The notes beneath the pieces were generated by a model. The model was not told the DNA's origin. It worked only from the letters and a program-made list of their open reading frames with translations, and did no database searches. 64,000 nt of DNA from Bacillota bacterium. GTDB lineage: Bacteria > Bacillota > Bacilli > Bacillales_A > Planococcaceae. Numbering within the stretch: the first letter of the stretch is position 1; every line of letters starts with the position of its first letter. Location of the stretch: NCBI GenBank assembly GCA_018816185.1, contig JAHIWI010000008.1, positions 1 to 64,000 of the forward strand, written 5' to 3'. The translations under genes and the position numbers were made by a program. Of the stretch, positions 29,787 through 32,193 are shown piece after piece.

Positions 29787-29815
29787 TTGACAAAATTCAG
29801 TGATTCGCATATTCT
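29787..29815 (+). promoter_or_regulatory. sigma-A promoter TTGACA-N17-TATTCT for the leader/mutS2-like unit
   Basis: TTGACA 29787-29792, 17-nt spacer, TATTCT 29810-29815. Confidence 0.8.
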
Positions 29816-29855
29816 AACAATGATAGTAAATGTGCTCGAAAGAGGAGATTGTTTT

Positions 29856-29879
29856 ATGAGTGTGAATGTTCTTAACTAA
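29856..29879 (+). CDS. leader peptide MSVNVLN*
   Basis: ATG AGT GTG AAT GTT CTT AAC TAA with AGAGGAG 8 nt upstream. Confidence 0.65.
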   Translation: MSVNVLN

Positions 29880-30211
29880 CCCGTTAATTGAATACGGTCT
29901 TGAATAAAGCGAAAACCCATAAATTAATTGGGTTATTTAGTATGCGCTTTTCAAGAATGTTAAGAACAAGCATCATAGCAATGAAGAATGGATATGTAAT
30001 TTCCAGCTATGGCATGTATTTGTCATCGCTTTTTTTTATGCTGATTAGTGAGTGTTTCGGAAATCAGTATAAGAAAATACATCGCTTTCACCATTTTGGT
30101 GTAACGTGATTTTTCTAATGGGAATTTATTTTGAGGGAGCCTTAAAACTCAAATTGAATTCTCTACGAATGAAGGAAAAGACTATCCAGCATAAGTAGGT
30201 CAATCTTCAAA

Positions 30212-30248
30212 GCCATCATGAGTGTTTTCATGGTGGCTTTTTTTATTT
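30212..30248 (+). terminator. intrinsic terminator in leader, 20 nt before the MutS2-like gene
   Basis: GCCATCATGA-gtgtttt-TCATGGTGGC then T7. Confidence 0.88.
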
Positions 30249-30267
30249 GAAAAAGGAGGAAAAATAA

Positions 30268-32193
30268 ATGAATCAACAAACAATTGATGTATTAGGATAT
30301 CAAGAAATTTTACAAGAGGTAGGGAGTTACGCCATCACCGAGCGTGCGAAGAAGACAATTGAGGAAATGCGACCTTCAACTAATAAAAAGTCGATTGAAC
30401 ATACATTGAGCGAAGTACAAGAGGCACTAGAGATTATGCAAATAAGTTCGAGTATACCCATTCACACACTTAGTGACATGGAACAATACATTGAACAAGC
30501 AAAAAAGGGGTTGTATATACGAGCCGATCAATTTACTCGCATCGTCTCTTTTTTAGATCATTGCCATAAGTTAAAACGCTTCATGAAAGATAAACAATAT
30601 GCTGCGCCTACTATTCATTTATATGCAGAATCTATTGGTGATTTAAGCGAATTGGAAGCTGAAATCACCCGCTGTTTAAAGCACGGCCAAGTTGATGATT
30701 ATGCCACGAAGGAACTTTCAACGATTAGAAGACAATTAGGTATGCTACTTACTAAGGTAAAAGATAGAGCTCAAACGATGGTGAAGTCTAAAACCTTCGC
30801 ACCTTATTTACAGGAAAGTATGGTTTCCGAAAGAAATGGACGATTTGTCTTTGCTGTTAAAAGAGAATATCGAAACAAAGTGAACGGGAATGTTCTCGAT
30901 ACATCAGCTTCAGGAGCGACATTATTCATGGAACCAAAAGAATTGGAAGTCATGCAGGGTGAAATCGACTTATTAAAAATTGCTGAAGAGCATGAAGTCG
31001 AGAAAATCTTATATGAACTGACTGAACAATTTCTTGAACATGAAATGTCGATGAATATTGCGATGGACACAATGCATCATTACGATGTTATTTTTGCAAA
31101 AGCGAAACACAGCAAACTAATTGAAGGGCAATGTCCTATTTTAAATGAAGAATACCTCATTCATTTAAAAGGAGCTAGACATCCTATGCTAAAAGGGAAT
31201 GCGGTTCCACTTTCTTTACAATTTGGAGAGCACGATCGCGCACTCGTTATTACAGGACCGAATACAGGTGGGAAGACGGTAACACTTAAAACAATCGGCT
31301 TACTTACCATGATGGCGCAAACGGGCTTATATATTCCAGCTGAAAAAGGGAGTACACTTCACATTTTCCAAAAGATTTTCGTAGATATTGGCGATGGTCA
31401 AAGCATAGAAGCAAATCTGAGCACATTCAGCTCACGCCTCGTCAATATTATTGAGATTTTAAAGTCAACGGATCAACGCTCACTCGTGCTGCTCGATGAA
31501 TTAGGGTCTGGAACAGACCCAAGTGAAGGGATGGCTTTAGCAATCGTCATTCTTGAACAACTCTTTGAGAAAGGGGCAACGCTTTTTGCAACCACTCATT
31601 ACAGTGAAATGAAGGACTTTGCCGATGCAAAAGAAGGCTTTTTAAATGGTTCCATGGAGTTCGATCTGGAAACTTTGCGTCCTACTTATCGTCTTTTATT
31701 AGGGCAAAGCGGGAAAAGCCAAGCATTTGATATTGCTTTGAAACTTGGGTTACATCCAGATTTAATTAGAAAAGCATATGTCATTTCGTACAAAAATGCG
31801 CATCCATTTTCGAATTCGATTCCAAGTGAAAACTTGAAAGATCTTCATTATGTAAAACAAATAACCACCTTTAAACATGATCGAAAACTTCGCAAAGAGG
31901 ACGTAGAGGATAAAGTTCCGTTATTTGAACAAGGAGACAATGTGAAAATAACTGCTACGGATGAAACTGGCATTGTCTATAAAGGGCCAAGTAGCATCGG
32001 AAATTATATTGTTCAAGTGAAAGGTGAAAAGAAAGAGTTTAACCATAAACGTCTTAAACTTCATATTAAAAAAAGTGAACTATATCCAGAGGATTATGAT
32101 TTTGATATTGTATTTAAATCTAAAGAATATCGCAAAGTGAAAAATCAGTTGGATCGAAAGTATGTAGAAGGTCTAAATCTAGAAGAAGATTAA
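30268..32193 (+). CDS. MutS2-family ATPase lacking C-terminal Smr domain
   Basis: GPNTGGKTVTLKT Walker A, LLDELGSGTDPSEG Walker B, ATTHY; KOW-like C-terminal FEQGDNVKI..; ends at 641 aa without Smr. Confidence 0.88.
   Translation: MNQQTIDVLGYQEILQEVGSYAITERAKKTIEEMRPSTNKKSIEHTLSEVQEALEIMQISSSIPIHTLSDMEQYIEQAKKGLYIRADQFTRIVSFLDHCHKLKRFMKDKQYAAPTIHLYAESIGDLSELEAEITRCLKHGQVDDYATKELSTIRRQLGMLLTKVKDRAQTMVKSKTFAPYLQESMVSERNGRFVFAVKREYRNKVNGNVLDTSASGATLFMEPKELEVMQGEIDLLKIAEEHEVEKILYELTEQFLEHEMSMNIAMDTMHHYDVIFAKAKHSKLIEGQCPILNEEYLIHLKGARHPMLKGNAVPLSLQFGEHDRALVITGPNTGGKTVTLKTIGLLTMMAQTGLYIPAEKGSTLHIFQKIFVDIGDGQSIEANLSTFSSRLVNIIEILKSTDQRSLVLLDELGSGTDPSEGMALAIVILEQLFEKGATLFATTHYSEMKDFADAKEGFLNGSMEFDLETLRPTYRLLLGQSGKSQAFDIALKLGLHPDLIRKAYVISYKNAHPFSNSIPSENLKDLHYVKQITTFKHDRKLRKEDVEDKVPLFEQGDNVKITATDETGIVYKGPSSIGNYIVQVKGEKKEFNHKRLKLHIKKSELYPEDYDFDIVFKSKEYRKVKNQLDRKYVEGLNLEED

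Follow-up and report, generated by a model that had tools for sequence, protein, structure and literature searches.

A predicted ribosome-stalling attenuator likely to induce an Smr-less, KOW-containing MutS2 homologue in Bacillota when translation is inhibited

What controls a MutS2-type ATPase gene that lies behind a leader with a seven-codon open reading frame (ORF) and transcription terminators, and what would a MutS2 protein without its Smr domain do once it is made? Such a gene is present in the window, by which we mean the whole 64,000-nucleotide stretch of Bacillota DNA analysed here. Our answer, which we consider likely, is that the locus is a ribosome-stalling attenuator that induces an Smr-less, KOW-guided ribosome splitter (denoted MutS2r) when translation is inhibited. 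The source genome is 82% complete, and the genus name Paenisporosarcina rests on loci with 79-81% protein identity.

Organization of the leader

The elements upstream of the MutS2r gene are the following:

29787-29815, + strand: sigma-A type promoter TTGACA-N17-TATTCT (motif match, conserved in congeners)
29841-29847, + strand: Shine-Dalgarno sequence AGAGGAG of the leader ORF (from the sequence; kept in homologues)
29856-29879, + strand: leader ORF, MSVNVLN-stop, 7 codons (from the sequence and homologue comparison)
Last three codons of the leader ORF, + strand: segment A, the 5' strand of helix P1
29880-29958, + strand: two hairpin regions, predicted to form a three-way junction (leader alignment and fold)
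29959-29968, + strand: segment B, the anti-ORF segment GUUAAGAACA, 3' strand of P1 (complementary to 29867-29876)
29971-29979, + strand: predicted antiterminator strand CAUCAUAGC (pairs with GCUAUG, 30006-30011, of terminator 1)
30005-30038, + strand: intrinsic terminator 1 (T1), stem-loop 30005-30030 plus eight U
30209-30244, + strand: intrinsic terminator 2 (T2), stem-loop 30209-30240 plus U-run
30223-30228, + strand: segment C, UGUUUU in the loop and 3' arm of T2 (can pair with segment B)
30253-30259, + strand: Shine-Dalgarno sequence AAGGAGG of the ATPase gene (from the sequence)

The promoter is the sole exact match to TTGACA-N17-TATTCT in the window, against 0.01 expected over 64 kb; its -35 and -10 elements are kept in five Paenisporosarcina congener loci, and from its position the transcription start is expected near 29822-29823 (+ strand). 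When the window was searched on both strands for short ORFs led by a strong Shine-Dalgarno sequence and complementary over at least 9 nt to a segment 40-200 nt downstream, the MSVNVLN ORF alone was found. The leader RNA at 29840-30075 folds with z = -4.6 relative to shuffles (0/200), and T1 is conserved within the genus. A first-pass annotation of this DNA had named the promoter and the seven-codon ORF with its Shine-Dalgarno sequence, both of which were borne out at the positions listed. It had further described a leader with one terminator at 30212-30248; a terminator does precede the gene, but its stem-loop spans 30209-30240 and is followed by the U-run, and the leader contains a second, upstream terminator (stem-loop 30005-30030) as well as a long-range helix formed with the complement at 29959-29968, both of which had been overlooked.

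Outside the main helix, two motifs are strongly conserved in the leader alignment (A5): AAUU..AUA, at about 29885-29895 just after the stop codon, and UUAUUU..UAUG, at about 29930-29945. One congener locus (L006, genome G076) carries an insertion of ~220 nt between T2 and the gene.

A MutS2-type ATPase without an Smr domain

The coding region comprises:

30268-32193, + strand: Smr-less MutS2 ATPase (MutS2r), 641 aa, with lever, clamp, MutS_V ATPase, KOW-like domain and C-terminal ELYPEDYD motif
31243-31779, + strand: MutS_V ATPase domain, residues 326-504 (MutS_V, 119 bits)
31930-32073, + strand: KOW-like beta-barrel, about residues 555-602 (AlphaFold2 model and hhalign)
32077-32193, + strand: family-specific C-terminal tail with ELYPEDYDFDIVF, in the place of the Smr domain (alignment A4)

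Residues 2-519 of MutS2r match TIGR01069 with 594 bits (cut-off 400), and the Walker A sequence TGPNTGGKT, the Walker B/catalytic DE, the LSTFS signature and the H-loop are kept across relatives. The AlphaFold2 model (mean pLDDT 83) shows a MutS2 core and a C-terminal beta-barrel, which is homologous to the KOW domain of canonical MutS2 (hhalign probability 89.6, E 1.9e-6); these matches uphold the earlier assignment as a MutS2-type ATPase with a KOW-like region. Among experimental structures the best match is 7qv3 (TM 0.72/0.78), in which B. subtilis MutS2 is bound to a collided disome; the C-terminal domain alone gave no significant match in a profile search of the PDB. Smr families gave no match in MutS2r, whose modelled chain ends after the KOW-like barrel and a short helix; the absence of Smr that had been claimed thus stands, an overlooked Smr domain having been looked for. 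Premature stops or C-terminal truncations were seen in the Smr-less MutS2 copies of three loci (L030, L120, L121).

Distribution and phylogeny

The genome also encodes a canonical MutS2, on contigs C285 and C262, between which the gene appears to be split. In a tree built from the first ~520 residues, for which the canonical sequences came mostly from the genomes that supplied Smr-less ones, 56 Smr-less and 19 canonical MutS2 proteins fell on opposite sides of one branch with support 100/100; MutS2r does not group with canonical MutS2 orthologues. Genome contigs searched with the C-terminal tail alignment (A4) yielded 549 relatives, and the C-terminal domain was present in 31 of 399 sampled Bacillota genomes. 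The family ranges over Bacilli, Paenibacillus relatives and Clostridia.

In the tree, the window gene is placed among those of Bacillaceae, apart from the Smr-less genes found in the rest of its family, and it occurs at high identity in six of nine genomes of its genus; this suggests acquisition by horizontal transfer. In a plasmid collection, genuine Smr-less matches were found on pSOL1 of C. acetobutylicum and on a Cytobacillus plasmid. Matches from Listeria in that collection were rejected as canonical MutS2 (polX-mutS2-trxA where annotated), and three "phage" records with an Smr-less MutS2 (L209-L211) are unannotated and UNVERIFIED and look like bacterial contigs, not phage genes.

Conservation of the leader ORF

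We read the upstream regions of 174 Smr-less MutS2 loci; the control set comprised 173, since one was too short upstream. The leader ORF was present at 150 of these 173 loci and in 1.0% of 1,730 dinucleotide shuffles, figures that amount to a description with a control and not to a blind test, as the pattern was written after inspection of the data. The ORF together with a pairing of at least 8 nt was found at 99 of the 173 loci, many of which are related so that the counts are not independent, against 0.06% in shuffles. None of 18 canonical mutS2 genes was preceded by the leader ORF. Terminators between leader ORF and gene also occur in most relatives. The first-pass annotation had inferred that ribosome stalling or translation-targeting antibiotics induce the paralogue, and had specified that homologues without leader ORF or terminator would refute this reading, which the comparison instead supports; ORF, long-range pairing and terminators recur across Bacillota.

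The 150 ORFs encode M-[S/L]-x-x-V-L-N-stop or the diverged forms MSVVGIN, MSAVGSN, MSEVGSK and MSVLSVMVIIN. Their length is 7 codons in 139 cases, 11 in eight, 8 in two and 6 in one, and VLN-stop hardly varies over a range that runs from Paenisporosarcina through Paenibacillus to several Clostridia. The identical peptide MSVNVLN is encoded by ATGAGTGTGAAT... in the window, with AGT for Ser, and by ATGTCGGTGAAT... in locus L089, with TCG; this change of Ser codon family argues for selection on the peptide. All 150 ORFs end with TAA or TAG and none with TGA, which terminates 40 of 170 downstream genes. The bias may reflect an RNA-pairing constraint or a dependence on RF1.

Helix P1 and a model for attenuation

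In nearly all class-1 loci (the GTTCTTAAC type), the last codons of the leader ORF pair with a segment ~70-115 nt downstream to form P1 (8-13 nt). Relatives of the Lysinibacillus and Solibacillus type have the same kind of layout in other letters, for example GUAGGUAU with AUACCUAC. RNAalifold applied to class-1 leaders returned P1 alone and showed no covariation, the helix being invariant in that class. Covariation is confined to comparisons between gene families, in which both sides are changed in 5 of 13 pairs. The covariation score of P1 was 0.222 against 0.111 (0/500 shuffles) and fell to 0.060 or less when the partner was slid.

According to computed folds of the window leader, P1 has a probability of 1.00 and T1 of 0.96 in the absence of a ribosome. 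Covering the end of the ORF brings P1 to 0 and raises the T1 antiterminator pairing, CAUCAUAGC with GCUAUG, from 0.01 to 0.24 at equilibrium. In a partial transcript ending before the 3' arm of T2 is complete, pairing of segments B and C rises from 0.00 in the free RNA to 0.79 with a ribosome. Once the whole leader has been made, the equilibrium still favours the terminators even with the ORF covered (T1 0.73, T2 0.96), so antitermination would have to be kinetic. Similar B:C pairing was computed in several other genera, and the full hairpin favours the terminator in all cases computed except locus L138, where the two are about even. Taken locus by locus, B:C complementarity reached p <=0.05 at 17 of 139, the segments being too short for significance at most single loci.

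We propose the following sequence of events. At baseline, ribosomes would complete MSVNVLN and leave, whereupon segment A would pair with segment B ~80 nt downstream; the resulting P1 would sequester B and its neighbour, and T1 and T2 would stop transcription. A translation inhibitor would hold a ribosome on the seven-codon ORF, cover A and thereby block P1. The freed segment B and the adjacent CAUCAUAGC could then invade T2 and T1 before these are complete, allowing RNA polymerase to read into the gene. The sequence evidence strongly supports transcription attenuation of the MutS2r gene by a leader peptide. That the signal would be a translation inhibitor such as an antibiotic we infer from the tet(M)/Tn916 and BmrCD precedents, mainly because tetracycline or another translation inhibitor is reported to relieve part of the attenuation in Tn916/tet(M) (PMC9154091).

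The same leader in front of other genes

A covariance model (R1) was built from 53 MutS2r leaders only. Run over 399 Bacillota genomes, it gave ten matches at E <=0.001: five precede MutS2r, four a BmrCD-like ABC exporter and one tet(M). The exporter leaders score 42-48 bits and that of tet(M) 42 bits, with E-values, which are rough for this model, of about 1e-4 to 1e-5 per genome. The leader peptides are MIKGVLK-stop before the exporter and MRQGILK-stop before tet(M), and the matched tet(M) adjoins a Tn916-type conjugation gene. The diverged leaders of the Lysinibacillus- and Solibacillus-like relatives score only 13-21 bits with R1. Over 401 Bacilli, 74 genomes were matched at E <=0.01. The 58 matches examined lie before MutS2r (38), BpsA (PF01861; 12), the ABC exporter (4), tet(M) (2), a GNAT acetyltransferase (1) and an MFS exporter (1); an unrelated housekeeping gene followed none of the 58. 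A search with the leader pattern before other genes within the family found MutS2r only, plus one match with two mismatches.

BLAST with the tet(M) leader showed that this type also precedes tet(O) and tet(S). MRQGILK-stop with its Shine-Dalgarno sequence and the long-range P1 pairing are present upstream of all three genes (L224, L306, L284, L285). The tet(M) "leader peptide" annotated in PLSDB is a different ORF that overlaps the terminator. Rfam has no family matching the MutS2r leaders (window, E up to 1; 20 loci) and lists the tet(M) leader RNA (L224:1416-1580, - strand) as RF02864, "Enterococcus sRNA 30", which is probably the attenuated tet(M) transcript and not a separate sRNA.

Leader-bearing loci for BpsA, a branched polyamine synthase, are L266, L271-L273, L279, L280, L288, L290, L291, L294, L298 and L301; an R1-type leader in this position suggests that branched-polyamine synthesis responds to translation stress. 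In the MFS exporter locus (L304), GTTCTTAAC pairs with GTTAAGAAC as P1 and a terminator is present, but the seven-codon ORF is absent from its usual place.

Function of the product and alternative explanations

The ATPase of B. subtilis MutS2 drives the splitting of stalled ribosomes, and removal of Smr strongly lowers binding of the protein to ribosomes (PMC10897456). Delta-SMR and KOW mutants of that protein nevertheless retain partial rescue and near-normal erythromycin tolerance, which a Walker B mutant does not (PMC10897456). On these data MutS2r would be expected to split stalled ribosomes in a less collision-dependent manner. It keeps the splitting ATPase and the KOW domain, the contact with uS10 in B. 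subtilis MutS2, but not Smr, by which canonical MutS2 is anchored to collided ribosomes; it could split drug-stalled ribosomes more generally and feed them into RQC. By analogy with the B. subtilis protein we infer ribosome splitting by MutS2r, and we suppose that it confers resistance or tolerance.

The same attenuator might instead control a protein that does not split ribosomes. During translation stress it might work on DNA, in repair or against recombination, or else regulate canonical MutS2 or act as its partner. MutS2 has long been described as an anti-recombinase, MutS-like ATPases bind DNA, and what MutS2r is missing is precisely the Smr anchor to collisions. We nonetheless judge such a role unlikely: MutS2 is devoid of the mismatch-recognition domains (PMC10897456), the KOW domain by which it contacts the ribosome is kept in MutS2r, and the leader is common to ribosome-protection and drug-export genes. 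The company of these genes, together with rescue-type ones and no amino-acid biosynthetic gene, bears equally on the notion that the leader works like a classical amino-acid attenuator and senses, in place of an antibiotic, a shortage of charged tRNA for Leu, Asn or Lys. Conservation of the last residues, V-L-N or V-L-K, would fit such a sensor, but repeated codons are absent from the leader ORF and the last residue varies between Asn, Lys and Ser, and we regard this as the least probable of the explanations. It is also very improbable that binding of a ligand or protein is the role of the conserved RNA and the ORF is secondary. The unpaired AAUU..AUA and UUAUUU..UAUG motifs are indeed conserved beyond what an attenuator stem needs; against this, AAUU..AUA lies within or adjoins the stretch that a ribosome at the stop codon would cover, and the start, Shine-Dalgarno sequence, length (7 codons in 139/150) and stop of the ORF are all conserved, as is the peptide across the switch in Ser codon family.

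Implications

Beyond the attenuator proposed for MutS2r, a wider reading, which we offer tentatively and rate at somewhat less than an even chance, is that the seven-codon leader and the P1 three-way-junction RNA constitute one widely dispersed, largely unrecognised sensor of translation inhibition, with a Bacillota regulon of MutS2r, tet(M)/(O)/(S), multidrug ABC and MFS exporters, BpsA and an acetyltransferase. The sensor may read stalling at an (Asn/Lys)-stop decoded by RF1; this stall position is proposed because all 150 MutS2r leaders end with TAA or TAG and none with TGA. If the regulon exists, the Smr-less MutS2 proteins would represent a novel class of antibiotic-tolerance factors that are inducible. 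The MutS2r leader in its own right, conserved across Bacillota and recurring before tet(M), tet(O) and tet(S), points to ribosome-rescue factors induced by antibiotics as a family so far unrecognised. It would tie ribosome rescue by MutS2 to an inducible antibiotic response through a duplicate without the collision sensor, placed under a tet(M)-type RNA switch. The proposed attenuation of MutS2r predicts a resistance or tolerance gene, now annotated as endonuclease MutS2, in many environmental and gut Bacillota. One conserved RNA could also serve as a probe for further inducible resistance genes, including those on mobile elements; branched-polyamine synthesis is an unexpected candidate. In the literature covered, which did not extend to the 1992 description of the tet(M) leader, we found neither an attenuator described in front of an Smr-less MutS2 nor any mention of MRQGILK.

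Comparison with known systems

The erm and vmlR genes, to which the locus had first been likened, proved the less apt comparison: tet(M) fits the RNA better and HflXr the protein. The leader of tet(M), tet(O) and tet(S) in Tn916 and its relatives shares with that of MutS2r a seven-codon ORF (MRQGILK-stop) with a Shine-Dalgarno sequence, a terminator before the gene, pairing of the ORF end with a segment ~75 nt downstream that encloses a three-way junction, and the AAUU..AUA motif; moreover, tet(M) is matched by the model trained on MutS2r leaders only. It differs in that the gene encodes a ribosome-protection GTPase, not MutS2, and in that only one terminator is obvious. HflXr of Listeria (lmo0762, rli80 attenuator) is likewise a duplicated ribosome-splitting factor under a leader-peptide attenuator, the other copy being kept, and is proposed to split stalled ribosomes (PMC6310831), but it is an HflX GTPase with a different RNA and a 14-aa leader containing the RLR macrolide motif.

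Canonical B. subtilis MutS2 has the lever/clamp, ATPase and KOW domains in common with MutS2r (~33-40% identity in structural alignments, TM ~0.7-0.8), whereas MutS2r lacks Smr, belongs to a separate clade, has the attenuator leader and ends in the ELYPEDYD tail. The vmlR, cplR and lsaA attenuators also combine a short upstream ORF with a terminator, and those of VmlR (MIN-stop) and LsaA (MAGN-stop) end in Asn-stop, but their ORFs have 3-4 codons, the RNA is different and the products are ABC-F proteins. Finally, transcription of the B. subtilis ABC exporter genes bmrCD is attenuated through bmrB in a ribosome-mediated manner (PMC4191407), and an exporter of related type carries the MutS2r-type leader; the bmrB leader itself, in contrast, has 53 codons and contains the terminator.
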